Of a DNA stretch of 54,168 bases, positions 7,508-40,675 are shown in pieces. Under the pieces are notes generated by a model. It worked only from the letters and a program-made list of their open reading frames with translations, was not told the origin of the DNA and searched no databases. The DNA comes from Flavobacteriaceae bacterium (GTDB lineage: Bacteria > Bacteroidota > Bacteroidia > Flavobacteriales > Weeksellaceae): NCBI GenBank assembly GCA_031276535.1, contig JAISMV010000148.1:1-54168 (forward strand). Direction: 5' to 3'. The position numbers were made by a program, and so were the translations under genes. Positions within the stretch are counted from its first letter, which is position 1. Each line of letters starts with the position of its first letter.

Positions 7508-8473
7508 ATGCTTTATAAAATATCTGTAATAGTACCCGTTTATAATGTAGAGTCTTATCTTCGGAAATGTTTGGATTCTCTTGTACAACAGACATTAAAG
7601 GAAATTGAGATAATTACGGTAAATGATGGTTCTACAGACAACTCTCAAGCAATTATAGATGAATACTCTGCTAAATATCCTCAGATAAAACCGATCATCA
7701 AAGACAATGGAGGTTTAAGTGATGCCCGAAACACCGGGATTTTGCACGCTGAGGGAGAATATGTGGCTTTTGTAGACAGCGATGATTGGGTGAAAAAGGA
7801 AATGATGGAAGAGATGTATGCGTTGGCAAAAAAACATTCTGCGGAAATAGTATTCTGTAATCTTCAGAATATAGATGAAACCGGCAGGGTTTTCAGACAT
7901 TTTCCGCAACTTCCGCAACTTCCGGAAAAAATAATGCTTAATGAGGATTTTACCGTTTTTGGAGAAATGGAATGTTTTGCCTGCAATAAAATATTTAAAA
8001 GAGAGCTTTTTGATACTATAAAATTTCCCAAAGGGCTGCATTTCGAAGACGTGGCTACAATTCCCCGGTTATTTTTAAAGGCAAATATCGTTGCGAAAAC
8101 TGATAAATATTTTTATCAATATTTTAAAAGAACCGGTTCCATTACCAGAAATTACACCTCAAAGGGGTCGGATATGTTTAAGGCAATTGAACTGGTAAAA
8201 AACGATTTCATTAAAAGTCCTTATAAAAAGTATATTCAGGATTGGGAAAAATTTGTCATATTTCAAGGAGTTTATTGTTTTCTGGCATATTATGCTTATG
8301 TAAAAAAAACGGATGTAAAAAAACAAATGTTTCAACAACTTAAATTTTTGACTGAATCGGAAGGCATAAGCAAAAGAAATATTTTGGAATATACCAGACA
8401 CAATAAGAACTATTTATTAAGTCTTACCATGAAAAAAATAGTCTATTATTTAATACAAATAATAAAAATATAA
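7508..8473 (+). CDS. Family 2 glycosyltransferase
   Basis: 321 aa; ISVIVPVYNVESYLRKCLDSLVQQTL, DGSTDNS, LSDARNTG, FVDSDDW. Confidence 0.92.
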   Translation: MLYKISVIVPVYNVESYLRKCLDSLVQQTLKEIEIITVNDGSTDNSQAIIDEYSAKYPQIKPIIKDNGGLSDARNTGILHAEGEYVAFVDSDDWVKKEMMEEMYALAKKHSAEIVFCNLQNIDETGRVFRHFPQLPQLPEKIMLNEDFTVFGEMECFACNKIFKRELFDTIKFPKGLHFEDVATIPRLFLKANIVAKTDKYFYQYFKRTGSITRNYTSKGSDMFKAIELVKNDFIKSPYKKYIQDWEKFVIFQGVYCFLAYYAYVKKTDVKKQMFQQLKFLTESEGISKRNILEYTRHNKNYLLSLTMKKIVYYLIQIIKI

Positions 8474-8474
8474 G

Positions 8475-9620
8475 ATGCTGCACCCTGTTTACTATATTAT
8501 AATGCTTGTTATTACCTTTTATAGTTATGTGGAATTTACCAGCAATGACAGTAACATTAAAGCAAGAATAAAAATTCCTTATATCCTGATAGTATTGGTA
8601 CTTATATTTATGGCAGGAATCAGAGTTGCACAGGGAGCGGATTTCTGGCCTTACTACAGGTTATACATGGGAATTAATAAATACGTAAGATGGAAAGATG
8701 CCTTTGATGCGGGAATAGAGCCTTTTTATGTAATAATATCTAAAGTATTGGGGTACTTCCGTATGCCTTTTTTTACTTTGCTGACAACGTTTGCAATTAT
8801 TTCGGTTTCTTTAAAAACCTCCACATATTTTAAGTACTCTCCTTATCCCATGCTGTCCCTGCTGTTTTTTTTCATGCCTTATTATTTCACGGGGGATTCC
8901 GGACATATAAGACAGACCGCATCGGTAGCCCTTTGTATATTTTCTTACCAATTTATAGAAAGAAGACAACTTTTTAAATTCTTATTATGCATATTTATAG
9001 GGTATTATTTCCATAAAACCGCTATAATTTTCATCCCTGCTTATTGGATAGCAAACATGTATATATCCACAAGAGGTTGTATAATTCTACTGATTATCTC
9101 CATTATCTTAGGGCCTTTTAAAATTTATTTATTGTTCGGAAGCTTATTTTCAAGCATGTCTTCAGATATTTTATCCGAAGCTGTTGGCGGCTATTACTCA
9201 TACCAAGGCATGGAAGGAGGGAATTTTTCCTTAAATGACATAGTGAAAATAATATTCCTGGCTATTATTTTATTTAATGATAATTATATTATCAATACTA
9301 CCAATGACAAGAACTACATGCCAATGCGAAATCTGGTTATATTCTTTTATTTCTTACACTACACTTTAAAAGGAAATATAATCTTTTCTTTAAGACTTCC
9401 TGCCGCATATAATGATTTTTCGATTATACTTATAGCCATGATCATAAAATATTCTCCCAAAAATATGAGTAGAATAATTTATTTTTATATAGTTATTTTT
9501 ATATACTTAATGAGTTGGAGATTTTGGCCTAATTCCGTAGCTTTAGGCTTTGATAAAATGTCTAATATATTCAACTCGGATACTAACTATTTTATTCCTT
9601 ATGAATTCGTTGATGAGTAA
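8475..9620 (+). CDS. EpsG-family membrane protein / putative polysaccharide polymerase
   Basis: 381 aa, many hydrophobic helices; ADFWPYYRLY, EPFYVIISKVL, IRQTASVALCIFSYQFIERRQLFKFLLCIFIGYYFHKTAIIFIP. Confidence 0.7.
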   Translation: MLHPVYYIIMLVITFYSYVEFTSNDSNIKARIKIPYILIVLVLIFMAGIRVAQGADFWPYYRLYMGINKYVRWKDAFDAGIEPFYVIISKVLGYFRMPFFTLLTTFAIISVSLKTSTYFKYSPYPMLSLLFFFMPYYFTGDSGHIRQTASVALCIFSYQFIERRQLFKFLLCIFIGYYFHKTAIIFIPAYWIANMYISTRGCIILLIISIILGPFKIYLLFGSLFSSMSSDILSEAVGGYYSYQGMEGGNFSLNDIVKIIFLAIILFNDNYIINTTNDKNYMPMRNLVIFFYFLHYTLKGNIIFSLRLPAAYNDFSIILIAMIIKYSPKNMSRIIYFYIVIFIYLMSWRFWPNSVALGFDKMSNIFNSDTNYFIPYEFVDE

Positions 9621-9717: not shown

Positions 9718-11199
9718 ATGAAAGAAAAAAATAAAGTTATCATCACCATCATAGGAGTAATACTATTCAAATTATTGTACTTATTAACCCGGCATGTACA
9801 AGAAGATGCTTTTATCACATGGAGAGTTGCTAAGAACATAATTGACTACGGCGTTTACGGATTTAACGGTGAAGAGAGAATTTCCTCCTCTACCACGCAT
9901 TTGTATGTTCTGATTTGTGTTTTTTTCAGATTGCTGTTTTCTGATTACTTCATTTACCCCTTGTTGATTTTTAACGGTATTTTATTTACTTTGGGAACTA
10001 AATATCTGGCAGATTTATTACTGAACAATACTACCTCAAAAATACTGTTCATTATTTTTGTCTGTTTGTTGCCTCCCGCTTTGAAAATTTCCATATTGGG
10101 AATGGAATTTGGCATGCTGTTTTTTCTGTATGTGCTCTTTCTGTATTATGCTCTTGTCAAAAGGCAGAAATGGGCTTTTATCATACTTCCCGTTTTAATT
10201 ATCTGGACCCGACTGGATGCAGGTTTGTTTTTAGTTATAACCTTTTTATATGATTGGATAAGACAGAAAAAACTTAATTATCCCTTTATTCTGGGAGGAA
10301 TTCTGGGAGGGCTTACAATAATGAGTTTTAACTATTTTTATTTCGGAGAAATAGTTAACAACACCATTGTAGCCAAAAAAATAGCCTATGAAAGCAACAA
10401 AACTTTCGGAGACCATATCTCAGAGATGATCTCCAACACCAATTTTTATTCGATGCTGAAAATCCCAAGAGAGCTTTGCTCTGTTAATGTATTCTTTATC
10501 ATAACTTTACTATTGTCGATATTTTCTCTGTTTAAAATAAAAAACAAACTGAACAAAACGCAATCTTTTATACTATTTATTATCTATACCTATTCCTGTA
10601 TAAGAATTGCCATATTTGGAATAGTAAACAGCTGGTTCGACTGGTACTATTGGATTCCCCAGATCTTCATGTTTGTTCCCGTAATCTTACTTTTTATAGA
10701 AAATGTTTCCGTTCCCAAGGTTTCAGCCTATATCCTTATATTCTGTATTCCTTTAACTCTCTACCAAACCGTACATTCTATCGCTACAGGAAACGGAGAA
10801 TGGAATTATAACCGAAATGTCGGGATCTACATAGATCGCATAGAGCCCGATAAAAATAAAACCATTTATATGGAATCCGCGGGTTATATATCTTACTTTT
10901 CCAAATTAAAAGTAATTGACTATGTGGGCTTAGTGGATAAAAGAGTCACTCAGGAGTTTATAAAAGACCGAAAAAATGTCACTGAAAACATTTTAAAAGA
11001 TCTCAAACCCAATTACATTCTGGAGTTTAATAACCCTATGTTCAAGGGAGCTGTTGATTCCGCCACCCGCAGTCATTACCAACTGATCAAAGAATTTCAT
11101 ATATCAGATGTCGCAAAATCAGATAATTACATTTTAAACAAAATATACCGCTTAAAACCCTCAGGAACAGATTATTATCTCTATAAAAGAATAGATTGA
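9718..11199 (+). CDS. GT-C-type membrane glycosyltransferase with AftB-like N-terminal motif
   Basis: 493 aa, multi-TM; EDAFITWRVAKNIIDYGVYGFNGEERISSSTT resembles D(D/E)AfItfRYAxNLxxGxGxvfNpGErVeGyTs; C-terminal VIDYVGLVDKRVTQEF. Confidence 0.55.
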   Translation: MKEKNKVIITIIGVILFKLLYLLTRHVQEDAFITWRVAKNIIDYGVYGFNGEERISSSTTHLYVLICVFFRLLFSDYFIYPLLIFNGILFTLGTKYLADLLLNNTTSKILFIIFVCLLPPALKISILGMEFGMLFFLYVLFLYYALVKRQKWAFIILPVLIIWTRLDAGLFLVITFLYDWIRQKKLNYPFILGGILGGLTIMSFNYFYFGEIVNNTIVAKKIAYESNKTFGDHISEMISNTNFYSMLKIPRELCSVNVFFIITLLLSIFSLFKIKNKLNKTQSFILFIIYTYSCIRIAIFGIVNSWFDWYYWIPQIFMFVPVILLFIENVSVPKVSAYILIFCIPLTLYQTVHSIATGNGEWNYNRNVGIYIDRIEPDKNKTIYMESAGYISYFSKLKVIDYVGLVDKRVTQEFIKDRKNVTENILKDLKPNYILEFNNPMFKGAVDSATRSHYQLIKEFHISDVAKSDNYILNKIYRLKPSGTDYYLYKRID

Positions 11200-16422: not shown

Positions 16423-17286
16423 GTGAACTACTTGAAACTGATAAGAATCCAGCAGTGGATTAAAAATGCCTTTGTATTTCTCCCTATTTTTTTCGCAGGG
16501 AAATTACTGGAACCTGATTTATTAATATACTCCGTATTGGTTTTTTTTGCTTTTTCATTCATAGCCAGTTCCATTTATATTATTAATGATTATGTTGACA
16601 TAGAGAGTGATAAAAGTCATCCCGAAAAAAAACACAGACCTCTTGCGAGTGGAAAAATAACGAAAAATCAGGCAAGAGTTGTTTTTTTCTTGCTTTTCCT
16701 TTCGGCTTATTTTGTCTGTTTTTTAATTAATTCTCTGGAAGTAGCGGTTGTTATCACTGCTTATTTTGTGATGAATCTGGCTTATAGCTTTAAATTAAAA
16801 CATGTAACAATTGTAGACGTAATAATTATTGCCATAGGTTTTTTGTTTAGGGTTTATGCGGGAGGATATGCAACCGGTCTTCCTATTTCAATCTGGGCTA
16901 TTCTGCTTACATTCTTTCTGGCTTTAATTATGGCAATAGGAAAAAGAAGAGGAGAACTGGTAAATGCAAGGCTTACCGGGAAAACAAGAAAAGCCCTGGA
17001 CGGATATAATCTGCAATTTACAGATGTAGCAATGACCGTAGTTTCCACATGCGTTATAGTATGTTACATCATGTATACTCTGGATCCGCAAATAAAGAAA
17101 AGTTTACATCCGCATATTGTTTATACCGTGATTTTTGTAATAACAGGAATCCTGAGGTATTTGCAATTAACCTTTGTACATAACAAAACAGAATCACCAA
17201 CTAAAGTAGTCTGTAAAGATCTATTTCTTCAGATAGATATTATATTATGGCTGTTAGTGGTTTTCATACTTAAATATTCAATTTGA
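16423..17286 (+). CDS. UbiA-family prenyltransferase, decaprenyl-phosphate phosphoribosyltransferase (DPPR synthase)-like
   Basis: 287 aa, GTG start; LIRIQQWIKNAFVFLPIFFAG and INDYVDIESDKSHPEKKHRPLASGKI match the NDxxDxxxDxxHPxKxxRPxAsG signature of Rv3806c-type enzymes. Confidence 0.85.
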   Translation: MNYLKLIRIQQWIKNAFVFLPIFFAGKLLEPDLLIYSVLVFFAFSFIASSIYIINDYVDIESDKSHPEKKHRPLASGKITKNQARVVFFLLFLSAYFVCFLINSLEVAVVITAYFVMNLAYSFKLKHVTIVDVIIIAIGFLFRVYAGGYATGLPISIWAILLTFFLALIMAIGKRRGELVNARLTGKTRKALDGYNLQFTDVAMTVVSTCVIVCYIMYTLDPQIKKSLHPHIVYTVIFVITGILRYLQLTFVHNKTESPTKVVCKDLFLQIDIILWLLVVFILKYSI

Positions 17287-17290
17287 AACT

Positions 17291-18613
17291 ATGGAAAGAA
17301 TTGATAATAAACAGAACGTTACAAACTGGGGGAAATATCCGGTAGTTAAAACAAATTTTCATATAACTTCCAATATTGCCAAAATCAGGGAAATAATAGA
17401 GGAAAGTACTTCCATTATAGCCAGAGGAAACGGAAGGTCTTATGGGGATAATTCTTTAAACAAAGAAAATATTCTGTCTACATTAAAGTTAAATAAGTTT
17501 ATTTCTTTTGACAGGGAGAAAGGAATTTTTGAATGTGAATCAGGAGTAATCCTATCAGATATTTTAGACACCATCGTGCCGGAAGGTTTCTTTCTTCCGG
17601 TAACTCCGGGAACCAAATTAATTACTGTAGGCGGAGCTATCGGGTCTGATGTGCATGGAAAGAACAATCACTCCGAAGGATGTTTCGGAGATTACGTACT
17701 TGATTTCACTATAATAACAGAAACAGGAGAAATAAAAAAATGCTCTCCCGAAGAAAATTCCGAATTATTTTGGAACACCATAGGTGGAATGGGGTTAACA
17801 GGAGTCATCATTTCCGCCCGGTTTACATTAAAAAAAATTCAAACAGCTTACATCAAACAAAGAATTTTAAAAGCAGATAACCTGAATGAAATATTTTCCT
17901 ACTTTGATGAATCCGAAGACTGGACATACAGCGTAGCCTGGATTGACTGTCTGCAAAAAGGACCTAAAATAGGAAAGTCCATTCTGATGATCGGAGAGCA
18001 CGCTAACCTGACAGACCTGCCGACAAAATGGAAAGCACATCCCTTGAAACCTAAGAAAAAAAACAAATTGAACGTTCCGTTTGATTTTCCTTCTTTTGTA
18101 TTAAATACATTTACGGTAAAAGCGTTTAATTTCCTTTATTATTTCAAACAAAGAAAAAAAATTGAAAATACGGTTGTAGACTATGATACCTTTTTTTATC
18201 CGTTGGATGCTATTCTCAACTGGAATCGGATCTATGGAAAAAAAGGGTTTATACAGTACCAGTTTATCATTCCGAAAGAGGTAGGAAGAGAAGGAATGAC
18301 CGAAATTTTAAAAACCATAGCAGAAAGTGGTCAGGGATCTTTCCTTGCAGTGTTAAAATTATATAAAAAGGGGAATCCAAATGCCCATAATTCTTTCCCT
18401 ATAGACGGATATAGTTTGGCGTTAGACTTTAAGATTCATAAAAAACTGCCTTTTTTAGTGAAAAAATTGGACGAAATCGTGGAACATTACGGAGGGAGAA
18501 TTTATCTGGCAAAAGATGCCATGTCTAAAAAATCGTTGATCAATTATATAAAAGTTCCGGAAACCGGGAAATTTAATTCCGTTCAACATGAAAGAATTGA
18601 AAATTATATATAA
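17291..18613 (+). CDS. FAD-binding oxidoreductase, decaprenylphosphoryl-ribose 2'-oxidase (DprE1)-like
   Basis: 440 aa; ARGNGRSYGDNSLN, TVGGAIGSDVHGKNNHSEGCFGDYV, GGRIYLAKDAM. Confidence 0.85.
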   Translation: MERIDNKQNVTNWGKYPVVKTNFHITSNIAKIREIIEESTSIIARGNGRSYGDNSLNKENILSTLKLNKFISFDREKGIFECESGVILSDILDTIVPEGFFLPVTPGTKLITVGGAIGSDVHGKNNHSEGCFGDYVLDFTIITETGEIKKCSPEENSELFWNTIGGMGLTGVIISARFTLKKIQTAYIKQRILKADNLNEIFSYFDESEDWTYSVAWIDCLQKGPKIGKSILMIGEHANLTDLPTKWKAHPLKPKKKNKLNVPFDFPSFVLNTFTVKAFNFLYYFKQRKKIENTVVDYDTFFYPLDAILNWNRIYGKKGFIQYQFIIPKEVGREGMTEILKTIAESGQGSFLAVLKLYKKGNPNAHNSFPIDGYSLALDFKIHKKLPFLVKKLDEIVEHYGGRIYLAKDAMSKKSLINYIKVPETGKFNSVQHERIENYI

Positions 18614-18618
18614 GCAGG

Positions 18619-20013
18619 ATGAAAGATACGTATTTGAAATATAAAGCGTTATTTGTTGTCTCTTTGTTGTCTGTCGCAGTCACTCCGTTTTTTTTATCCA
18701 GTGGAGGTACTGCACCGGACTCTCTGTCCTATTTCAAACTGACTGAAGATCTTCCTGAAATTAACGCTAATTTATTTCCAATAGGGTATCCTTTATTATT
18801 GAATCTGCCCAATTATTTTGTTGATGATTATTTCTACAGTTCAAAGATTTTAAATGTATTTGGAATTATTTTCATAGGGATATTTTCTTATTATAAAAAG
18901 TTTTATTTTAGAGAAACCGTTATCCTTTTAACTTTCCGTGTTTTTCTTAACATTTATCCATATTCATATTCAGAAAGTGTTTTTTTAACTTTACTGTACT
19001 TTTTAGTATATTATTTTCATGAATATTTTACAGGAAAAATATACGGTTTACGTTTTATAGTACCTGCTTCCCTACTTGCAATTTATCTGGTTATGATCAG
19101 ATATTCAGGGGTTTACATTTACATTGCCACAGGAATATATTTTTTATTTTTTGTCTTAAGAAATAAGAATATCCCGTCGGTTTTTAAGAAAGATTATTTC
19201 TGTTTTCTGGGGCTTTCAGCCCTAGGTATCGGAGGCTACTTGTTATTTAACTATTATCATTTTGGCGGGTTCTTTGGTGAAAATATAAGATCTAAACCCG
19301 ATATAGATAACTTCTGGCACTTTACCTATGAGAATTTATTAGGAGTGATCAATATCGTGAATCCTATATTCTCATTTAAAATTTTACAGATAAAAAATAT
19401 ATATGCATTATGGATGGAGATCATCATCATTGCGCTTGATCTATTATTCTTAGTATATTTTATTTTCTATTACATTCGGTATTTTAAAAATAAAATTACC
19501 CCTTTCCATCAGCTGCTGTTAACTGTCGGGATCTCTTATATGCTGTTTATGTTTATTTCGGAATATACACAAAGCATAGAATTATTAAATACAAGAATGT
19601 TGTGCGAATCATCTTTTGTGTTATTCTTCTCATTCCTGCTGTTATATTATGAAAACTTCCCCGAAAAAGTCAAAAACATGTTTTTAATAGGGTGTATATC
19701 ATTATTTTGTAACATCGTTTATTTGGTTAAAATTCCAGAGAATTATTTACACAACCGAAGTATGGTGAAAAAGATCTTACAAAACAAAAAAGAAGCCGGA
19801 TATTTTTATGACGACACCAAAAATGAAAAAAAGGTTTCCATTTATAAAATTCCGTTTATAAACAAGACACTGGAATATGCTCATCCATATCTCCAGTCGG
19901 GACAAGTAAATTTAAACATAATAAGAACCCTTAATCCTCATATTCAAGCTATAAAGGATGACGGATTAATTGATGATAAGAGTAAAATTATATATAATTC
20001 AGAAATAAAATGA
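18619..20013 (+). CDS. Multi-TM membrane protein, GT-C-like candidate glycosyltransferase
   Basis: 464 aa, about 10 or more hydrophobic helices; early PDSLSYFKLTEDLPEINANLFPIGYPLLL; tightly packed between dprE1-like and dprE2-like genes. Confidence 0.5.
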   Translation: MKDTYLKYKALFVVSLLSVAVTPFFLSSGGTAPDSLSYFKLTEDLPEINANLFPIGYPLLLNLPNYFVDDYFYSSKILNVFGIIFIGIFSYYKKFYFRETVILLTFRVFLNIYPYSYSESVFLTLLYFLVYYFHEYFTGKIYGLRFIVPASLLAIYLVMIRYSGVYIYIATGIYFLFFVLRNKNIPSVFKKDYFCFLGLSALGIGGYLLFNYYHFGGFFGENIRSKPDIDNFWHFTYENLLGVINIVNPIFSFKILQIKNIYALWMEIIIIALDLLFLVYFIFYYIRYFKNKITPFHQLLLTVGISYMLFMFISEYTQSIELLNTRMLCESSFVLFFSFLLLYYENFPEKVKNMFLIGCISLFCNIVYLVKIPENYLHNRSMVKKILQNKKEAGYFYDDTKNEKKVSIYKIPFINKTLEYAHPYLQSGQVNLNIIRTLNPHIQAIKDDGLIDDKSKIIYNSEIK

Positions 20014-20738
20014 TAGTATTAGGAGCAACCTCGGACATCTCACAAGCTTTTGTTGATAAAGTTTTGTCAGAAAATAAAAATAAATACCCCAAACTATATT
20101 TAGTGACATCCAACCCCGATGAGACGGAAAGATTTGCTAAACATATACAGGTAAAACATAATCAGGAATCTGAAATTATATTCTTTGATGTAACTGAAAA
20201 TTCAGACTACTCCGTGTTCGATACGGTGGAAACAGACCTGTTATTCTGTGCTACGGGTTTTTTAGGAAAAAATACGGAAGAAGGGTTATATAATAATAAG
20301 AATACGGAAAAAATTATAGAAATTAATTACTCAAAACTAGTTCCTTTGATTAACTATTTTGCCCATAAATTTGAGAATAAGAAAAAAGGAACCATCATAG
20401 GATTATCTTCAGTAGCAGGACTGAGAGGAAGACAAAGTAATTTTATTTACGGAAGTTCCAAAGCCGGATTTGCCGTTTATTTAGATGGACTACGAAATTA
20501 CCTCTCCCATAAGAATGTACATGTAATCACCGTTTTACCTGGATTTTTAGACACAAAGATGACCGCAGACCTACAATTACCCAAATTATTGACAGCATCA
20601 CCGCAGAAAGCCGCTAACGTCATTTACAAAGCATATAAGAAAAAAAGAAACAAGATCTATGTAACGGGAATTTGGAGGATTATTATGTTTATAGTGAAAA
20701 ATATTCCCGAATTTATTTTTAAAAGAATGAAAATGTAA
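20010..20738 (+). CDS. Short-chain dehydrogenase, decaprenylphosphoryl-2-keto-ribose reductase (DprE2)-like
   Basis: 242 aa; IVLGATSDISQAF, SSVAGLRGRQSNFIYGSSKAGFAVYLDGLRNYL, VLPGFLDTKMT. Confidence 0.8.
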   Translation: MIVLGATSDISQAFVDKVLSENKNKYPKLYLVTSNPDETERFAKHIQVKHNQESEIIFFDVTENSDYSVFDTVETDLLFCATGFLGKNTEEGLYNNKNTEKIIEINYSKLVPLINYFAHKFENKKKGTIIGLSSVAGLRGRQSNFIYGSSKAGFAVYLDGLRNYLSHKNVHVITVLPGFLDTKMTADLQLPKLLTASPQKAANVIYKAYKKKRNKIYVTGIWRIIMFIVKNIPEFIFKRMKM

Positions 20739-20903
20739 TTACTATAACCCAAACCGATTGTTCATGTAAAAACATCAATTATTATAGACAAGAGATTAAC
20801 CGCTTTTTCTCTGACGGCAGGAGGTAGAAACCTTTTGCAGAAAAGAAAGGATCTATTTCCGGTTTACATCCCGATTCGTATGCAGATTTAAAAATAAAGA
20901 CTT

Positions 20904-21491
20904 ATGAATGATAAACTATATCTCTTTGATTTTGACGGAACTATAACCAACACGGATACCCTGTTTGATTTTTTGCAAGTCTCCTTTCCGGAAAGATATA
21001 AATACGCTTTTATTAAATTCATTCTCTTATTCTTGTTGGTTAAATTTAAAATAGTAAGTGCAGGAAAAGTCAAGCAAAAATTTGTTTCCTGTTTTTTGAA
21101 AGGAAAAAGCAGAAAAGAAATAGAAAGCCTGACTCAGCATTATTTTGAGGTAAGAAAAAAAAATATACTTAGACCGAAAGCACTGGAATATATAAAAAAC
21201 TTAGCTCATGAGCCCAATAAATATATAGTAACCGCCTCGCTGGATATATGGGTCGAACCTTTTGCAAAACACTTGGGACTCCGTTTAATCTCCACCGAGT
21301 CCGGTTTTGATAATGATATTTTTACGGGGAAATTCACTACTCCCAATTGTAATTATAAAGAAAAAGTAGTACGAATTGTAAAAGAAATTCAGTTAGCGCG
21401 ATTTAAAGAGATCCATGCCTTTGGCGATAGCAAAGGTGATAAACATATGCTGGAACTCGCTACGGAAGCCCATTTTCGTTATTTCGAATAG
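20904..21491 (+). CDS. HAD-IB-type hydrolase/phosphatase
   Basis: 195 aa; LFDFDGTITNTDTLFDFL, YIVTASLDIWVEPFAKHLGL, FGDSKGDKHMLELA. Confidence 0.85.
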   Translation: MNDKLYLFDFDGTITNTDTLFDFLQVSFPERYKYAFIKFILLFLLVKFKIVSAGKVKQKFVSCFLKGKSRKEIESLTQHYFEVRKKNILRPKALEYIKNLAHEPNKYIVTASLDIWVEPFAKHLGLRLISTESGFDNDIFTGKFTTPNCNYKEKVVRIVKEIQLARFKEIHAFGDSKGDKHMLELATEAHFRYFE

Positions 21492-23374: not shown

Positions 23375-24310
23375 TTAATAATTCCACATATTATTTTCTT
23401 TTTGCAGAATTTCATTTTTGATTCTGATACTTTCTTCCAGTTGAGATTTTGCATCTCCCGGAATGTAATTGGAAATCTCTCCGTCTCCGTATTCCGATTG
23501 TGACCGGTAAATAATGGAACTGAATCTTCTTGCATTCAGCACATCATCATACGTAATGGATGAAGAACCATTTTTAGGGTTAAATACGGTATAGCTGGAC
23601 AATACTTCTCTGGCGTCTGGATAGAAGATCCAGAACAAGTCGATCAGTTCATCGTCGCCTTCATATCCCAGCATGGTTGCATCGGTTAGTCCCAAAACCT
23701 GAGGGTCTGGTCCCATAGGAGCTATTCCCAGTAAACGATACTTCATTTGTCCTAATCGTCTGTCAACATACCACATTCCTTTAATTTTTATTAATTTTAC
23801 GCTTTTGGTATCTGTTTTGAAATTGTCGGTTCCTTCCAGAACATCCTGTTCGGTAATTTCTTCTCCTGCATCTCTTTTATCTCTCAACCAGTCAGATTCT
23901 CTTACAGCCTGAATTTTAGATTGAATATTTTCCGGGGCTATTTTTGCTGTAAAATTATCATCATCATATACTTCTGTTATTTTTCCGGAGTTTATTCCTT
24001 CAAATAAAGCATCATATAAGGATAAGTATGTAGCTGTTATTTCATCGTGAGAATAATAATACGGCTGATTTAATTTTTCATTTAAATCTATGATTTCCCA
24101 TACTACTTTTGACCATAGAATATCTTTATCTTCTATATATCCGTATGGCAATATGGTAGGTGCTGTGGATATGGTGTCTGTTCCATTAACTATATCATAC
24201 TTTTCCTGCCTCATTTTCCTTAATTCTTCCGGAGACTTTGAATTTAATACATTTTGTGCAAAGGCTCCTGTGCTGATTAAGACCGATAAACAAACTATTA
24301 GATATTTCAT
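23375..24310 (-). CDS. gldN: Gliding motility / T9SS protein GldN
   Basis: 311 aa with signal peptide; IDLNEKLNQPYYYSHDEI, YRLLGIAPMGPD, DLFWIFYPDAREVL; follows gldM. Confidence 0.92.
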   Translation of the reverse strand: MKYLIVCLSVLISTGAFAQNVLNSKSPEELRKMRQEKYDIVNGTDTISTAPTILPYGYIEDKDILWSKVVWEIIDLNEKLNQPYYYSHDEITATYLSLYDALFEGINSGKITEVYDDDNFTAKIAPENIQSKIQAVRESDWLRDKRDAGEEITEQDVLEGTDNFKTDTKSVKLIKIKGMWYVDRRLGQMKYRLLGIAPMGPDPQVLGLTDATMLGYEGDDELIDLFWIFYPDAREVLSSYTVFNPKNGSSSITYDDVLNARRFSSIIYRSQSEYGDGEISNYIPGDAKSQLEESIRIKNEILQKENNMWNY

Positions 24311-24340
24311 GGTAAAATAGTATTTAAAGTTGTTTCTTTT

Positions 24341-25879
24341 TTATTGTACATTTATCACAATAGGTGATATATTTTGTTGTGATATTCCCGAAGCAACCGC
24401 AGAGATATCAAATATTAACACCTGATCTCCTGCTCTTGCTTTAGCCAAAGCTCCGGCAGCTGCTCTCAACGAGCTTCCTGATACGGTTGTTGTCGGCTGT
24501 CCGGTTACTTTTACCTTAAATCCTGTGACAGAGAACGAAACCGGGAATTCAAAATCAGGAATTCCTGCACTTACTGTCTGATTAGGTAAGGAAGAAGCCG
24601 GTATGCTCAATACATTGGTTCCTCGTATCTGTCCTTGCGCTTTAGGAATATTTTTTATTCTAAAGGTTACTGCATTGCTAACTGTTTTTCCTGAATTTGT
24701 TGTTCCGGAAATTGTAAACGTTGTACTGGTTCCTGCTCCGGGTCTGTATATCCATCCTCTTCCGGATCTTGACAGGTTTCCGCTTCCGCTGGAGATTCTC
24801 AAGCTGATGGTAGAGGCGTCTACTCCTGTTACGGAACCGCTCATCGGGTTGTCTACTCCTCTATACACTACGTTCATCTTATCAGCTACTACGGTACCTC
24901 CTACCGGCAGTTCTTTGGTTATATCCTGAGCAACTTCATAAGATTCACTGAATGGTACTGTTTTTTGTGCACCACTAGGAGTTTCGTATGTAATGGATCC
25001 GCTCAGGGTTTGTTTTCCTACTCCTGAGGCCACTACGCTGACTATTGCTTTTCCTCCGTCCAAAGGAACCGAACGTCCGCTTAGGTTAATAGAGCCTTTC
25101 AATGTGTTGTCGTAAGCTCCAAAGCCTATTGTTACATCAAATTTTTCTCCTACTCTTACATATTTAGGGGCGGATACTATTGGAACAAATGCTTTTAGTT
25201 CTATTTCGTCTTTAAGTTTGTTAGACAGTAAATCCCTTACCCTGTTTCCTTCTTCCGTTCTGATATTGGATTCTAATTTGGTCAGGTTTGTCAATGCTGC
25301 AATCAGAGGTTGGTCATAGAACTGATCTACTAACCAGGATTTCCCCCCTTTACCTGAAAGGTCAAATAACTTGGCTATCCGTTTTTCTGTTCTGCCATCA
25401 ACTCCTGTCTGCATAAACTTAGTATAATTTTGAATCTTACTGATCATATCTTTAACTTCCGGTGTGGGTTTATTATCACTCACAAAGAAAATTCTGTTTA
25501 CGACATCTGTTTTCTGCAACGAACTATAATTGATTTCTTCGTCTCCTTTTGTTTCCGTGTATTCGGCTGCCAATACCAAAGCACGCTTCACGGCATCTAT
25601 AGCTTTAATAACGTCTTCCGTTTGACCTTTCACAATTTTTGCTTTTCGTGAAATGTCAATATACCCTTCATCTCCTTCATCTTTTTTCTTTTCTATTTGT
25701 TCATAAAAGGTAATGTTGTTTTCTTTAGTAAGGTTTGTAGATAGTTCCAAAGATTTATTTACGCCTTCAAAAGACCGTAATACTTCCCTGTCTACATTCA
25801 TAGCCATCATTGCGATAAACACTAAATACATAAGGTTTATCATCTTCTGACGTGGTGTTTGTGATCCTCCTGCTGCCAT
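24341..25879 (-). CDS. gldM: Gliding motility / T9SS protein GldM
   Basis: 512 aa; MAAGGSQTPRQKMINLMYLVFIAMMAMNVDREVLRSFEGVNKSL. Confidence 0.95.
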   Translation of the reverse strand: MAAGGSQTPRQKMINLMYLVFIAMMAMNVDREVLRSFEGVNKSLELSTNLTKENNITFYEQIEKKKDEGDEGYIDISRKAKIVKGQTEDVIKAIDAVKRALVLAAEYTETKGDEEINYSSLQKTDVVNRIFFVSDNKPTPEVKDMISKIQNYTKFMQTGVDGRTEKRIAKLFDLSGKGGKSWLVDQFYDQPLIAALTNLTKLESNIRTEEGNRVRDLLSNKLKDEIELKAFVPIVSAPKYVRVGEKFDVTIGFGAYDNTLKGSINLSGRSVPLDGGKAIVSVVASGVGKQTLSGSITYETPSGAQKTVPFSESYEVAQDITKELPVGGTVVADKMNVVYRGVDNPMSGSVTGVDASTISLRISSGSGNLSRSGRGWIYRPGAGTSTTFTISGTTNSGKTVSNAVTFRIKNIPKAQGQIRGTNVLSIPASSLPNQTVSAGIPDFEFPVSFSVTGFKVKVTGQPTTTVSGSSLRAAAGALAKARAGDQVLIFDISAVASGISQQNISPIVINVQ

Positions 25880-25912
25880 TTTACTTAGGTAATTTTTATA
25901 TTTTTAAAATTA

Positions 25913-26746
25913 TTAAGCTTTCATGGCATTAAGCATACCACCATATACTTTATTTAAATTATTTAAGTTGGCTGTTAACTCAGCTAGTTGTTGCTGGAAG
26001 GATATTGTACTTTCTTCCGATTTAGATAAATCATCTACGTATTTTTGGTTAGCTTCCACATATTTTTTCCCGTTATCCAACTGTAATTGATACAGAGAAT
26101 TTAAGTTTTCCAAATGAGAAGAAGCCAGATGTAATTGTTTTTGGAAAGACGCTGCACCTTCTTCCGATCTAGATAGATCATCCACGTATTTTTGGCTGGC
26201 TTCCACATATTTTTTCCCATTATCCAACTGTAATTGATATAGGGCATTTAAGTTTTCCAAATGGGAGGAAGCTATGTATAATTGATCTTTGTAATTGTCT
26301 GTAGCTGCATGCGCTTCTACGGTTTTATTGATACCGTCTACTGCTGCACCGAAGTTTTCAATTCCTTTTCTTAGTTTTTCTAATACATTTACATCTAATT
26401 TTGCAGTAGAAAGCATTTCATCCAATTTTGCCGATAGGGAAACTTCCGCTTCTTTTATTTCTTTTTCCGGCTGGATTTTTACTTCTTTTTTTACGGGCGC
26501 AGAACTTTCATCCAACAACTGGGGATATACATTCTCCCATTCATATTCTCCTTTTGGAGGGTCAAAGGCAAAAACAACGAAGATAAAAGCTTCTACTATA
26601 AGCCCGGCTCCCAACACTATACTACCATCAATTCCGAATAGAGATAAGTGGTTAATTTTGAATAGTGCACCTAAAATAACTACTGCTGCACCTAAAGAGT
26701 ACACCATGTTTAATGTCTTGTCTTTTGATTTTGCTTTTACCGCCAT
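25913..26746 (-). CDS. gldL: Gliding motility / T9SS motor protein GldL with duplicated C-terminal segment
   Basis: 277 aa; MVYSLGAAVVILGALFKINH then a second TM helix; C-terminal LNNLNKVYGGMLNAM. Confidence 0.95.
   Translation of the reverse strand: MAVKAKSKDKTLNMVYSLGAAVVILGALFKINHLSLFGIDGSIVLGAGLIVEAFIFVVFAFDPPKGEYEWENVYPQLLDESSAPVKKEVKIQPEKEIKEAEVSLSAKLDEMLSTAKLDVNVLEKLRKGIENFGAAVDGINKTVEAHAATDNYKDQLYIASSHLENLNALYQLQLDNGKKYVEASQKYVDDLSRSEEGAASFQKQLHLASSHLENLNSLYQLQLDNGKKYVEANQKYVDDLSKSEESTISFQQQLAELTANLNNLNKVYGGMLNAMKA
26014..26307. repeat. Tandem duplication inside gldL, period 147 bp (49 codons)
   Basis: cttccgattta...caaatgagaag at 26014 onward recurs at 26161 onward; encodes two near-identical (S)SHLENLN(A/S)LYQLQLDNGKKYVEA(S/N)QKYVDDLS(R/K)SEE units. 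Confidence 0.9.
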
Positions 26747-26802
26747 TTTTTTTCTGTTTTTATTAAATTAGTTAAATATTATTATTAGTTTAGTTTATTT
26801 TT

Positions 26803-28209
26803 TTATTGATGTTTCTGTACTTTCGGGAATTTCTCTTTAGCTCCTTCAGGGATGGTTTGCACTCTTCTAAATCCTATAAAACTTCTTGCGGAATCTTTAT
26901 GCTCCCAGTCTCTTTCGCTAACCATCAACATGTATCCTATGTCTTTCCAGGAACCTCCTTTGACTACTTTTCTCGGGTCTTCTATTCTGTTTCCCAAATA
27001 AGGATTTAATGTGGATGAAATTATATAGGAACTGTTATTGTAGGCTGATACCGTCCACTCGGAAACATTTCCTGCCATGTCATACAGCCCGAATCCATTT
27101 TTATGAAATGATTTTACGGGGGCAGTCCACAAGAATCCTTTATCGCCTTCTATGTAATCTCCTCTTTTGGGTTTAAAATTTGCCAGATAGCAGCCTCTGT
27201 CGTCTATTAGATAGGGACCTCCCCAAGGATACGGAGCATTTTCCAATCCTCCTCGGGCTGCATATTCCCATTCTACTTCCGAAGGTAATCTGTATGGGAA
27301 AATTTTATCTATTTTTTTCTTACGGCTTTGGTTAAAATCATTTTTCGCTTTGGTACTGTATGCGCAAAATGCTCTTGCCTGATCCCAGGTAACTCCTACT
27401 ACCGGATAACTGGAATACGCTTTATGCCAGAAATATTGTTCAAATAAAGGCTCGTTGAATGAATAATTGAAATCTCTCAGCCATACGGTGGTATCCGGAT
27501 AAATGGCAATTTCTTCTTTTTTCAGGAAGTTTTCGCCTCTGCCTTTTTTCTTTACGGCGTCTAACTGATCTATCCATGAAAACTGATAAACCAACTTTCT
27601 GGGGTCTAAAACCCTCTCGTCGTTAAATCGTTCTTCCGGTGGGTAATATAAGGATTCCAACACTTCTGCGTATGCAACATCCGGATAACGGGCGGTTTTC
27701 CATTCTAAAGGAACAGACCAGTCTAACTTTTTGTTTTCATTATATCCTTCTCTATCTCCTTTTTCTTCCAGAAATTGTTGATATGCCGTTTGTTCTGCCT
27801 CTGATTTTTTATTATAATAGGCATATCTTCCTATTCCTTCTTCTCCTCCTCCTTCATCTCCGGCTTTTTCCGCTAAAAGGCTGCGAACGATGGAATCTCT
27901 AACGTATTTTACGAATTCTCTATATTCCGAGTTAGTGATTTCTGTATCATCCATGTAGAAAGAAGAAACGGTGACGGTTGTCAAAGGGGCTTTGGTTTCT
28001 GTTCCTGTGAAATCCAGATCGGATTGTCCTAAAACAAAAGCTCCTCCAGGAATTGGAACCATACCAAAAGGTCTTTTACTGTTCCATTGCTGGTTCTTTT
28101 GTGTTACCACAATCTCCCCTTGCACTACCGGCTTGCCTTTCCCTCTTTTAGAGGATTTACAGGAAACTACCGTTGTTGCTGCCAATAAGAATAACAATAC
28201 TTTTCTCAT
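26803..28209 (-). CDS. gldK: Gliding motility / T9SS lipoprotein GldK (FGE-sulfatase domain)
   Basis: 468 aa; lipobox-like VVSCKSS; IPGGAFVLGQSDLDF, LPSEVEWEYAARGG, YDMAGNVSEWTVSAY, VVKGGSWKD. Confidence 0.95.
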   Translation of the reverse strand: MRKVLLFLLAATTVVSCKSSKRGKGKPVVQGEIVVTQKNQQWNSKRPFGMVPIPGGAFVLGQSDLDFTGTETKAPLTTVTVSSFYMDDTEITNSEYREFVKYVRDSIVRSLLAEKAGDEGGGEEGIGRYAYYNKKSEAEQTAYQQFLEEKGDREGYNENKKLDWSVPLEWKTARYPDVAYAEVLESLYYPPEERFNDERVLDPRKLVYQFSWIDQLDAVKKKGRGENFLKKEEIAIYPDTTVWLRDFNYSFNEPLFEQYFWHKAYSSYPVVGVTWDQARAFCAYSTKAKNDFNQSRKKKIDKIFPYRLPSEVEWEYAARGGLENAPYPWGGPYLIDDRGCYLANFKPKRGDYIEGDKGFLWTAPVKSFHKNGFGLYDMAGNVSEWTVSAYNNSSYIISSTLNPYLGNRIEDPRKVVKGGSWKDIGYMLMVSERDWEHKDSARSFIGFRRVQTIPEGAKEKFPKVQKHQ

Positions 28210-32521: not shown

Positions 32522-35500
32522 TTATATTTTTTCAGTTATCAGTTCTTCGAACTCTTTATTAGAGCCTACAATAACATTTTGATATTCTGCTAAACCTGTA
32601 CCTGCAGGAATTCTGTGTCCTACAATTACGTTTTCTTTTAATCCGTTCAGATAATCAATCTTACCTGCTACAGCGGCTTCATTTAATACTTTGGTAGTTT
32701 CCTGGAAGGAAGCGGCAGAGATAAATGATTTGGTCTGCAATGAAGCTCTGGTAATACCTTGCAACACCGGGCTGGCAGTTGCAGGTAAAGCTTCTCTTGC
32801 TTCTACCAGTTTTTTATCTTCTCGTATTAATTTAGAATTTTCGTCTCGTAAATCTCTTGCAGAAATAATCTGACCTGCTTTCAGTTCTTCACTGTCTCCC
32901 GGGTCGGTAATTACTTTCATTCCGAAAATTCTGTCGTTTTCTTCTATAAAGTCGATCTTATGTTCTAAATTTCCTTCTAAGAATTTTGTATCTCCGGCAT
33001 CTACAATTTCTACTTTGGTCATCATCTGACGAACAATGATCTCAAAGTGTTTGTCGTCAATTTTTACCCCCTGCAAACGATATACTTCCTGAATTTCATT
33101 TACCAGATATTCCTGTACGGCAGTAGGTCCTTTGATATTTAAGATATCATTCGGGGTGATGGCTCCGTCGGACAGGGCGTCTCCTGCATGGACAAAGTCA
33201 TTTTCCTGAACCAGTATCTGGTTTGATAATTTAACCAAATATCTCTTGATCTCTCCACTCTTAGATTCAATAATAATCTCCCGGTTACCTCTTTTTATTT
33301 TACCATAACTTACTACTCCGTCTATTTCGGAAACAACCGCAGGGTTTGAAGGATTTCTGGCTTCGAATAATTCGGTTACCCGTGGAAGACCTCCTGTGAT
33401 GTCTCCGGCTTTTGCCGATCTTCTCGGAATTTTCACTAAAATTCTTCCGGCCTTGATCTTCTCTCCGTCATTTACAATCAGGTGAGCGCCTACGGGCAGG
33501 TTTATAGATTTTAATTCGTTGCCTTTTGTATCAAGGATCTTCAAGGTAGGAATCAGTTTTTTATTTCTGGATTCGGAAATTACTTTTTCTTCAAATCCGG
33601 TTTGTTCATCTATTTCCAGTTGGTAGGTAGAACCTTGTTCTATCTGTTCGTACTCGATTTTACCTGCTGTTTCGGAAAGGATAATGGCATTATATGGATC
33701 CCATTTGCAAATGATGTCTCCTTTATTCACTTCCTGACCTTGTTGAACCAATAAGGTAGAGCCGTAAGGGATGTTCGTAAGCATTTGGATGTTGCCTTCG
33801 GAATTTAGTAATTTGAATTCGGTAGAACGAGAAACAACGATCACTATTTTATTTCCGTTTTCGTCTTCACTTTCTACGGTTCTGATGTCATCGAATTCTA
33901 CTTTTCCGTCTCTTTTAGCAACAATGTTGCTTACTTCGGCAATATTTCCTGCCGTACCACCTACGTGGAAAGTTCTTAACGTCAACTGAGTTCCCGGTTC
34001 TCCGATAGATTGTGCGGCAATTACACCAACGGCTTCTCCTTTGTTGATCAGCTTGTTGGTGGACAGGTTTACACCGTAACATTTCGCACAAATACCTTTT
34101 TTGGATTCACAAGTCAGCGGAGAACGAACTTCTACAGCTTCAATACCGGATTTTTCAATTAATTTTGCTAATTCCGAAGTAATTAATTGATCAGCTTCTA
34201 CTAAAAGTTCATCCGTATCGGGGTGGTATATGTCATGAAGGGATACTCGTCCTAATATTCTTTCTGATAAAGGTTCTACAATTTCGTCATTCTTTTTCAA
34301 AGGAGTAATTTCGATACCGCGTAGTGTTCCGCAATCTTTTTCATTGATGATGACATCCTGCGCAACGTCTACCAGACGACGGGTCAGATAACCCGCATCG
34401 GCTGTTTTTAAGGCGGTATCTGCCAATCCTTTACGAGCTCCGTGGGTAGAAATGAAATATTCCAGAATGGAAAGTCCTTCACGGAAATTGGAGATGATCG
34501 GGTTTTCGATGATTTCTCCTCCGGAGGAACCGGCTTTCTGAGGCTTAGCCATCAATCCCCGCATTCCCGCCAGCTGGCGAATTTGCTCTTTAGAACCCCG
34601 CGCTCCGGAATCAAGCATCATATATACTGAATTGAATCCTCCTTTATCGGTTTTCATCCTCTGCATGATCAAATCGGTCAATCGGGCGTTGGTATTAGTC
34701 CAGACGTCAATTACCTGATTATATCGTTCGTTATTGGTGATCAACCCCATGTTATAATTAGACCTGATGGCATCTACCTGTTCATTGGCTTCCTGAATCA
34801 TGGTTTTCTTTTCTTCCGGAGTTTTAATGTCTCCCAGGCTGAAAGAAAGTCCTCCTCTGAATGCGGTAGCATATCCCAGAGTTTTCATATCATCCAGGAA
34901 TTTTGCAGTCGTAGGGAAGTCCGTTTTTTGTAAGATAGCACCAATGATGTTACGTAATGACTTTTTGGTTAATACTTCATTGATGAACCCTACTTTTTCA
35001 GGTACTATTTTATTGAATAATACTCTACCTACCGTAGTTTCAATCATTTTCTCCACCAATTCTTCACCTTCGGCAACTTTTGCTTTTACTTTGATGACAG
35101 CGTTTAAGTCCACCGCTTTTTCATTATAGGCAATTTCTATTTCTTCGGCGGAATAGAAATAGGAACCGTGTCCTTTTACCTTTATTTCATCGGTTGGTAT
35201 TAAAGGTTTGGTCATATAGTACAGCCCCAGAACCATGTCCTGAGAAGGTACCTGAATAGGAGATCCGTTAGCCGGATTTAATATGTTTTGAGAAGCTAAC
35301 ATTAATAGTTGAGCTTCCAGAATAGCTTCAGGTCCTAAAGGTAAGTGAACCGCCATTTGGTCTCCGTCAAAGTCCGCGTTGAATGCAGTACATACCAACG
35401 GATGGAGACGAATCGCTTTTCCTTCAATCATTCTTGGCTGGAATGCCTGAATACCTAAACGGTGCAGGGTAGGAGCCCGGTTTAGTAACACCGGATGTCC

Positions 35501-36796
35501 TTTCATTACGTTTTCAAGAATATCGTAAACTACAGGTTCTTTTCTTTCAATGATTCGTTTTGCCGATTTTACGGTTTTCACGATTCCTCTTTCAATGAGT
35601 TTACGGATGATAAAAGGCTTGTAAAGTTCGGCTGCCATATCTTTAGGCAAACCGCATTCGTGCAGTTGCAGGGAAGGTCCTACAACAATAACGGAACGAG
35701 CTGAATAATCCACCCGTTTTCCTAATAAGTTTTGACGGAAACGTCCTTGTTTTCCTTTTAGTGAATCCGATAAGGATTTCAAAGGTCTGTTAGACTCGGA
35801 TTTTACAGCGGATGATTTCCTTGTATTATCGAAAAGGGAATCCACGGCTTCCTGAAGCATACGTTTTTCATTACGTAGGATCACTTCCGGCGCTTTGATT
35901 TCAATCAGCCTTTTCAGACGATTATTTCTAATGATAACCCGACGGTATAGATCATTCAGGTCAGAGGTAGCAAAACGTCCTCCATCCAGCGGAACCAAAG
36001 GACGAAGATCCGGAGGAATAACGGGAATAACCCGCATGATCATCCATTCCGGACGATTGATTCTTCCGTTGGAATTGGCTTCTCTGAAAGATTCAACTAC
36101 TTGCAGCCTTTTCAGGGCTTCGGTTCGTCTTTGTTTGGATGATTCGGTATTTGCTTTATGTCTTAGCTCATAAGACAGAGCATTTAGATCAATTCTTTTA
36201 AGTAGTTCTTCTAAACATTCCGCTCCCATTTTGGCAACGAACTTGTTTGGATCGGAATCATCTAAATGTTGATTTTCAATAGGAAGAGTTTCCAGAATAT
36301 CCAGATATTCTTCTTCGGTTAAAAATTCAAGGGGTTCCAGTTCTTCACCGTTTAGTTTTTTGGCAATTCCTGCCTGAATAACTACAAACCGTTCGTTGTA
36401 GATAATCATGTCCAACTTTTTGGAAGGGATTCCCAACAGATATCCTATTTTGTTGGGGAGTGAACGGAAATACCATATATGAGCCACAGGAACCACCAAA
36501 TTGATATGTCCTATTCTTTCCCGTCTGACTTTTTTCTCGGTCACTTCCACTCCACATCGGTCACACACGATTCCTTTGTAACGGATCCTTTTATATTTAC
36601 CGCAAGCACATTCATAGTCTTTTACAGGCCCAAATATTCTTTCACAGAAAAGCCCGTCACGTTCAGGTTTATGTGTACGGTAATTGATAGTTTCAGGTTT
36701 TAAAACTTCTCCTCTGGATTGTTGCAAAATGCTTTCCGGAGAGGCTAATCCTATTGTGATCTTACTAAATTTGCTAGTTCTTTGTTTAACTGCCAT
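32522..36796 (-). CDS. rpoC: DNA-directed RNA polymerase subunit beta'
   Basis: 1424 aa; [15 protein letters not shown], zinc-binding [23 protein letters not shown]. Confidence 0.98.
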
Positions 36797-36853
36797 TATT
36801 TTGTAATCAATTAAATTGAAAAATTTTTATTTTACAGGGATCAGAAAGATTTA

Positions 36854-39800: not shown

Positions 39801-40675
39801 TCAATAATTAAGTCAATGTGTTCTTTTTCTAAAACAGTTTCACGATCCAGAATGATTTCATTTCTTTCGATGGAAACTACTTCCCCGGTATCTTCGTCTA
39901 CAAAGTCTTCGAACCAAGTGTTTAATACTCTTGCGACTAAGGTCCTTCCCAACATTTTTTTCAGGTTGGATTTGTTCACCTTGATTTCTTCTGCAAGGTC
40001 GAAAATTTCTAATATGTCTTTATCGCTCTGATAACCGATTGCACGAAGCAGGGTAGTCATCGGAAGTTTTTTCTTCCTGTCGATATAAGCATACATCACG
40101 CCGTTAATATCAGTGGCAAATTCCATCCAGGATCCTTTGAAAGGAATGATTCGGGAAGAATATAATTTAGCACCATTGGCATGATATGATTGTCCAAAAA
40201 ATACACCGGGTGAGCGATGTAATTGGGATACCACTACTCTTTCCGCTCCGTTGATAATAAAGGAACCGCTAGGGGTCATATAGGGAATAGGTCCCAAATA
40301 GACATCCTGAACTACGGTTTCGAAATCTTCATGTTCCGGGTCTGTACAATATAGTTTAAGACGGGCTTTGAGTGGTACGCTGTAGGTCAGACCTCTTTCA
40401 ATACATTCTTCGATAGAATATTTGGGAGGATCGACAAAATAATCTAAAAATTCTAAAACGAACTGATTTCTTGTATCTGAAATAGGAAAATTTTCAGTAA
40501 ACGTTTTAAAAAGTCCTTCATTTTTTCTTTGGTCAGGACGGGTTTCCAACTGAAAGAAATCCTGAAAAGATTTCACCTGGATGTCCAGAAAATCAGGGAA
40601 TTCAATTTGTCCTTTAGAGTGTGAGAAACTAAATCTCTTAGGGTTTTGAGTTTTTGAGGCCAATGATTTATTCAT
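36854..40675 (-). CDS. rpoB: DNA-directed RNA polymerase subunit beta
   Basis: 1273 aa; [63 protein letters not shown]. Confidence 0.98.

Follow-up and report, generated by a model that had tools for sequence, protein, structure and literature searches.

D-Arabinofuranose (Araf) is chiefly familiar as a sugar of mycobacteria and related bacteria, in which the pathway generating its lipid-linked donor serves as a drug target. Might a Gram-negative member of the Bacteroidota generate such a donor as well and, if so, where would the sugar be placed? This question is raised by a cassette of five genes found in the window, namely, the 54,168-nucleotide stretch of DNA analyzed here (contig JAISMV010000148.1 of GenBank assembly GCA_031276535.1; contig C73 in the present work), which comes from a bacterium assigned to the Weeksellaceae. 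An earlier reading, made from the sequence alone, had seen in this cassette a route to a polyprenyl-phosphoryl-pentose, akin to that yielding decaprenyl-phosphoryl-arabinose (DPA) in actinobacteria. The findings reported below make it likely that the cassette generates polyprenyl-phosphoryl-β-D-arabinofuranose (polyprenyl-P-Araf) and that, outside the inner membrane, GT-C glycosyltransferases transfer Araf to a glycan of the cell surface. Given the presence of a gene set of the tuberculosis type, of the donor-contacting residues of the transferase AftB, and of a group of sugar-coat genes, the Gram-negative family to which the host belongs probably adds D-arabinose to a surface sugar.

Results

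The host genome comprises 2.29 Mb and is 93.5% complete. The closest relatives of its DprE1-like protein are found in Apibacter, a bee-gut bacterium, and in metagenome-assembled genomes of Flavobacteriaceae (81-84% identity), and on this basis, the host was regarded as one of the Weeksellaceae resembling Apibacter. Comparisons drew on 65 homologous loci obtained in one scan of the genome collection, some of which are cut by contig ends, as well as on a family set of 120 genomes and a class set of 247 genomes. Strong DprE1 matches were obtained in 93 genomes of the family set and in 35 genomes of the class set.

Five consecutive open reading frames (ORFs) were indeed found on the plus strand between positions 16,423 and 21,491, separated, in order, by 4, 5, -4, and 165 bp (Table 1). 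The first product, previously considered to be a UbiA protein resembling decaprenyl-phosphoryl-5-phosphoribose (DPPR) synthase, scored above the curated cut-offs of both NCBIfam NF008977 (decaprenyl-phosphate phosphoribosyltransferase; 240.9 bits, cut-off 234) and NF008978 (217.6 bits, cut-off 207), and its best match in the PDB was the mycobacterial phosphoribosyltransferase Rv3806c (8j8j; E 2.6e-39), bearing out that assignment. The product of the second gene matched NF053785 with a score of 401.6 bits, the next family yielding 54 bits, and found its best PDB match in DprE1 (4aut; E 1.7e-84). The short-chain dehydrogenase/reductase (SDR) encoded by the fourth gene, in turn, best matched DprE2 (21gq_C; 91.6 bits, with the runner-up at 38.8 bits). 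The comparison with Rv3806c, DprE1, and DprE2 that the sequence-only reading had called for thus returned these proteins as the best solved relatives of the three window proteins. The call of a haloacid dehalogenase (HAD) phosphatase likewise held, since the last product scored above the cut-off of TIGR01490 (106.7 bits, cut-off 98.3); its sequence carries the motifs DFDGT and GDSKGD. That the order UbiA-DprE1-SDR-HAD recurs in 38 of the 65 homologous loci argues against a chance arrangement. The remaining 27 loci present partial or different gene orders, some at contig ends.

Table 1. Genes of the window assigned to the proposed Araf pathway and its probable acceptor glycan.
Feature	Position	Strand	Basis
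GT2 glycosyltransferase of probable acceptor glycan	7508-8473	+	PF00535
EpsG/Wzy-like polysaccharide polymerase of probable acceptor glycan	8475-9620	+	PF14897, 137 bits
AftB-like GT-C, arabinofuranosyltransferase candidate	9718-11199	+	Family profile, residues, GT-C model, synteny
UbiA-type polyprenyl-phosphate 5-phosphoribosyltransferase (DPPR synthase)	16423-17286	+	NF008977, PDB 8j8j, motifs
DprE1-like FAD oxidase, proposed 2'-oxidation of polyprenyl-P-ribose	17291-18613	+	NF053785, PDB DprE1, pocket residues
GT-C-fold membrane protein, accessory glycosyltransferase between dprE1 and dprE2	18619-20013	+	AlphaFold2 model, Foldseek, invariant residues
DprE2-like SDR, proposed 2-ulose reductase	20010-20738	+	PDB DprE2, Ser/Tyr/Lys
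HAD-IB phosphatase, proposed polyprenyl-P-ribose-5-phosphate phosphatase	20904-21491	+	TIGR01490, motifs, gene order

The DprE1-like and DprE2-like assignments also gained from an examination of catalytic residues, nearly all of which are kept. The window oxidase and its homologues were aligned with a fragment of Mycobacterium tuberculosis DprE1, the numbering of which is used here. Residues Y60, H132, W230, Q334, Q336, K367, Y415, and K418 are retained in the window protein, and each is found in at least 62 of the 65 homologues. At three other positions, the window protein presents Ala (C387), Ser (N385), and Phe (Y314). Position 387 is occupied by Ala in 64 of the 65 homologues outside Actinobacteria, with position 385 being Thr or Ser in the same number of homologues (64/65). 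C387 is the DprE1 residue with which benzothiazinones react, and mycobacterial DprE1 variants at this position remain active. With Ala at this position, the DprE1-like oxidase would therefore be expected to be insensitive to benzothiazinones. The window UbiA retains the NDxxDxxxDxxHPxK and GKRxxE motifs, which the two other UbiA paralogues of the genome keep only in part. Across 56 aligned rows, the N, D, D, D, K, and R residues of these motifs are invariant, while the final residue of GKRxxE is Glu in 36 rows and Asp in 19 (Glu in the window protein). The SDR keeps the catalytic Ser, Tyr, and Lys, the latter two being invariant in 54 homologues. As far as can be judged from sequence, both refuting conditions named in the sequence-only reading were answered in its favor. 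A quick tree places M. tuberculosis DprE1 inside the set of homologues, although it was of limited use, since the branches are long, the outgroup does not come together, and one row corresponds to a mis-called ORF.

Could the pathway instead end with polyprenyl-phosphoryl-ribofuranose (polyprenyl-P-Ribf) or another pentose epimer, with the DprE1/DprE2-like pair performing a different oxidation and reduction? In mycobacteria, Rv3806c transfers ribose-5-phosphate from phosphoribosyl pyrophosphate (PRPP) to decaprenyl-phosphate, after which DprE1 and DprE2 carry out epimerization, whereas in Citrobacter, a UbiA-HAD protein was shown biochemically to make polyprenyl-P-Ribf, which is transferred by a GT-C enzyme, such that UbiA, HAD, and GT-C activities suffice for Ribf (PMC11127046). 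Moreover, some homologous loci contain DprE1 with no SDR or UbiA nearby, and the DprE1-like and DprE2-like proteins both fall below equivalog cut-offs, as detailed below. At the same time, nearly all residues of the DprE1 substrate pocket are kept, as are, in the AftB-like family described below, the equivalents of AftB residues E172 and T274, and a donor other than polyprenyl-P-Araf is considered very unlikely. In the survey of Kelly et al. (2024), Araf-containing glycans had DprE1/DprE2 homologues (PMC11127046). Polyprenyl-P-Araf is accordingly retained here as the preferred product of the cassette.

The third gene of the cassette had been described as encoding a GT-C-like protein, and this stands. 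No Pfam or NCBIfam family was matched, yet an AlphaFold2 model of the protein (pLDDT 87.8; pTM 0.89) found its best PDB folds among GT-C enzymes in a Foldseek search, namely, PglB, AftB, Pmt4, and AftA, the TM-scores being modest (approximately 0.4-0.5). Residues D34, E119, R161, E221, and R224 are invariant. By contrast, the view of this gene as a conserved member of an otherwise well-supported set did not survive comparison across genomes. As part of the cassette, this GT-C was encountered solely in Apibacter and its close relatives, in which the gene is intact in the window and in genomes G102, G041, and G090, frame-disrupted or present as a remnant in G058 and G071, swapped for another GT-C (c37) in G016, and missing in G081 and G097. 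Because other genera lack the gene in this slot and some Apibacter carry a disrupted copy, carry a replacement, or have lost it altogether, a role in a core step was rejected. Instead, we read the protein as an exchangeable, variable accessory transferase, as if exchanged between Apibacter strains.

In Apibacter, two positions, one separating dprE1 from dprE2 and one following dprE2, hold varied GT-C-like genes or remnants, or are empty (loci L152 in G016, L008, L156 in G058, L154 in G071, and L158 in G081).

A better-conserved candidate for the transferase is offered by the AftB-like gene, which lies outside the five-gene interval and was overlooked by the earlier reading. AftB is the terminal β-arabinofuranosyltransferase of mycobacteria. 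The window protein has no match in Pfam, and when it or a c37 relative served as a single-sequence query of the PDB, no match was obtained, with only a family profile giving a result. Specifically, a profile built from this ORF and 19 relatives matched exactly one PDB sequence up to an E-value of 10, that of AftB (E 7.7e-5). A model for terminal β-(1->2)-arabinofuranosyltransferases (NF041481) weakly matched 11 of these 20 members, the best of these matches (E 0.0016) scoring far short of the cut-off. An AlphaFold2 model of the protein (pLDDT 79.7) presents a GT-C fold, for which Foldseek returned 13 matches at E <= 0.001, including AftB and AftD, with ALG12 ranking first.

Ties to AftB are also suggested at the level of individual residues. 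In AftB, D62 is catalytic, R221 and R372 are essential, and T91, E172, and T274 contact the donor, with E172 and T274 contacting the Araf ring (PMC12041299). R372 falls outside the aligned region, while the five functional residues within it, namely, D62, T91, E172, R221, and T274, correspond to D30, T59, E130, R165, and T216 of the window protein and are identical in all 17 orthologues. The family presents ED where AftB presents DD, with the equivalent of D62 being kept. Of the AftB residues, D62, T91, and R221 are also present in the c37 GT-Cs from Apibacter muscae and Apibacter adventoris. Because these proteins do not share E172 and T274, the argument regarding the donor was not extended to them. 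A further locus, L029 (7707-9097), carries an AftB-like gene that lies immediately upstream of UbiA, is divided between two overlapping frames, and lacks part of its middle, reflecting either a broken gene or an assembly error.

The AftB-like gene tends to occur together with the cassette. In the family set, the gene was found in 61 of 93 cassette-positive genomes and in only one of 27 cassette-negative genomes, the latter being 79% complete; a second incomplete, cassette-negative genome (G013) yielded a partial match below the counting score. The cassette GT-C family, with weak homologues counted, was found in 54 of the 93 and none of the 27, and one or the other GT-C family in 84/93 versus 1/27 (Fisher p 1e-17, uncorrected for relatedness). 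When genera were counted, the AftB-like gene was seen in 19 of 24 versus one of nine (p 7e-4). It could be argued that the four conserved enzymes make an Araf donor, while the AftB-like GT-C employs a different polyprenyl-phosphate-linked sugar, with relatedness inflating the co-occurrence test, shared ancestry accounting for the pattern, and the weak AftB match and generic GT-C fold, in which ALG12 ranks above AftB, saying little of the donor. Such an explanation seems quite improbable, however, in view of the identity of all five aligned functional residues, of the position of the gene directly 3' of the HAD gene in two genera, and of genus g21, where both cassette-negative genomes also lack the AftB-like gene. 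The AftB-like protein is thus retained as the candidate arabinofuranosyltransferase.

As to the acceptor, the gene order in the window is GT2-EpsG-AftB-like, and six other genomes (L140-L143, L171, and L172) likewise carry GT2 and EpsG homologues close to the AftB-like gene. The AftB-like gene comes immediately after the HAD gene in genus g21 and in G028. In G099 and G028, the order UbiA-DprE1-SDR-HAD-AftB-like is followed within a few genes by GT4, hexapeptide transferase, GT2, EpsG, GT2, and WecA-like genes, with a Wza-like gene coming after the WecA-like gene in G099. In g2 and g26 genomes, the AftB-like gene is near GT2, EpsG, and WecA-like genes, with Wza-like and Wzc-like genes following in g26. 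In the host genome, contig C64 carries WecA-like, DegT, Polysacc_synt_2, Wza-like, and Wzc-like genes. The sequence-only reading, in which the acceptor of the polyprenyl-P-pentose was unknown, is hence supported by sequence in terms of the donor and narrowed in terms of the acceptor, for which an EpsG-type surface polysaccharide is now the leading candidate.

Several observations weigh against a pathway of this kind. The score of the DprE1-like oxidase is below the NF053785 equivalog cut-off of 500, a value reached in none of the 120 family or 247 class genomes, while the SDR, at 149.8 bits, is below the cut-off of 250 for NCBIfam DprE2 (NF053786) and scores higher against the general SDR model PRK07102 (236 bits, cut-off 267). 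Nine cassette-positive family genomes contain neither GT-C family and, at the class level, the AftB-like family is nearly confined to the bacterial family of the host, whereas the cassette is more widely distributed. In the window, 5.2 kb separate the AftB-like gene from the cassette, with two opposite-strand and three other genes in between. No dedicated flippase was found: the cassette itself contains none, and MATE proteins were not searched for genome-wide. Lastly, in L134-L139, L169, L173, and L174, the AftB-like gene adjoins a gene encoding a TMEM260-like GT-C (PF11028), rather than a polysaccharide cluster.

The single GtrA homologue of the host genome, on contig C140, was considered as the flippase. 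It was not accepted: although 80 of the 93 cassette-positive genomes have a homologue, so do 10 of the 27 cassette-negative genomes, and the genera with the fullest operon lack one.

Because a TMEM260-like neighbor, annotated as a protein O-mannosyltransferase, recurs in several genera, the acceptor may differ between them or be a protein. Polyprenyl-P-Araf could then serve a protein O-glycan or the lipid A/lipopolysaccharide (LPS) core, instead of an EpsG-type polysaccharide. General protein O-glycosylation exists in Bacteroidota (PMC12871550), and the O-arabinosylation of Pseudomonas pilin offers a precedent (cited in PMC11127046). Still, a text search of the former report revealed no mention of arabinose or pentose, and the GT2 and EpsG genes near the AftB-like gene in the window and six other genomes, in several cases followed by WecA/Wza/Wzc-like genes, point elsewhere. 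A protein or LPS acceptor is therefore deemed unlikely. In other Apibacter, the AftB-like gene is found beside neither a polysaccharide cluster nor a TMEM260-like gene. Since neighborhoods thus differ between genera, the polysaccharide is the leading, not a proven, acceptor.

Drawing on the enzyme families represented, the conservation of active sites, the order of the genes, and their co-occurrence, all of them seen in the sequences, we infer the reactions, lipids, flippase step, acceptor, and linkage as follows. UbiA would employ PRPP to generate polyprenyl-phosphoryl-ribose-5-phosphate, from which the HAD enzyme would remove the 5'-phosphate to yield polyprenyl-P-Ribf. The DprE1-like oxidase would next generate a 2'-keto sugar, to be reduced by the DprE2-like SDR to polyprenyl-P-Araf, which a putative flippase would turn over. 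The AftB-like GT-C would then attach Araf to the repeating unit of an EpsG-polymerized exopolysaccharide or capsule, with the linkage being β should the likeness to AftB hold, while the cassette GT-C may add Araf to a further site or glycan that varies between strains.

Discussion

The proposed system amounts to a variant, found in Bacteroidota, of pentofuranose pathways already described. It resembles the mycobacterial/corynebacterial DPA pathway (Rv3806c, Rv3807c, DprE1, DprE2, and AftB) in comprising a UbiA phosphoribosyltransferase, DprE1-like and DprE2-like enzymes, and a GT-C with, in the aligned region, the catalytic and donor-contacting residues of AftB. It differs in that the phosphatase is of the HAD rather than the Rv3807c type, the DprE1-like oxidase carries Ala at the C387 position, and the host is Gram-negative. 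Among the genes that were examined, no Emb-type enzyme of arabinan assembly came to light, a genome-wide search not having been made.

The three-component pentofuranose system of Citrobacter youngae O1/O2 (GT136) is similarly composed of UbiA, a HAD phosphatase, an optional epimerase, and a GT-C transferase (PMC11127046). The pairing of PPPRS with a HAD phosphatase, a feature of this system, was found here as a UbiA scoring above cut-off and a HAD-IB gene in conserved linkage. Unlike in Citrobacter, where a MATE flippase gene is linked, the cassette contains no flippase gene; UbiA and HAD are, moreover, separate genes here, and the GT-C candidate resembles AftB. In Pseudomonas aeruginosa, the GT-C transferring D-Araf to pilin is TfpW. 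That organism is likewise Gram-negative and relies on a DPPR synthase homologue for its Araf donor, with the phosphatase said to belong to a different structural family (cited in PMC11127046); the present cassette, by contrast, lacks a pilin context.

Each kind of enzyme considered here is already known, and systems combining DprE1/DprE2 with pentofuranose GT-Cs have been described outside Actinobacteria. In the literature searched, with subscription journals mostly outside the search, no report of D-Araf or DPA genes in Bacteroidota was found, nor of a Bacteroidota system of this kind, an operon with the HAD enzyme encoded by a gene of its own, or a link between an AftB-like transferase and an EpsG-type cluster.

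Elsewhere in the window, four minus-strand genes at 23375-28209 resemble, by sequence, those encoding the gliding-motility/type 9 secretion proteins GldN, GldM, GldL, and GldK, and on the same strand, two very long ORFs, of 1424 and 1273 amino acids, are found at 32522-40675.

Extended to the whole of the Weeksellaceae, a name taken from the matched records, including Chryseobacterium, Bergeyella, and Apibacter, the proposal becomes tentative, with doubt slightly outweighing confidence. Members of the family may place D-Araf on a surface polysaccharide via an AftB-type retaining GT-C and a dedicated HAD phosphatase, with exchangeable accessory GT-Cs diversifying the coat between Apibacter strains. 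If true, Gram-negative bacteria, including animal-associated species and insect-gut symbionts, would make a donor of the mycobacterial type, using a HAD enzyme for dephosphorylation and an oxidase naturally carrying Ala at the benzothiazinone target position. Such bacteria would offer further hosts for studying DprE1/DprE2 and AftB-type enzymes, and their surface glycans would be predicted to contain a sugar not previously reported there.

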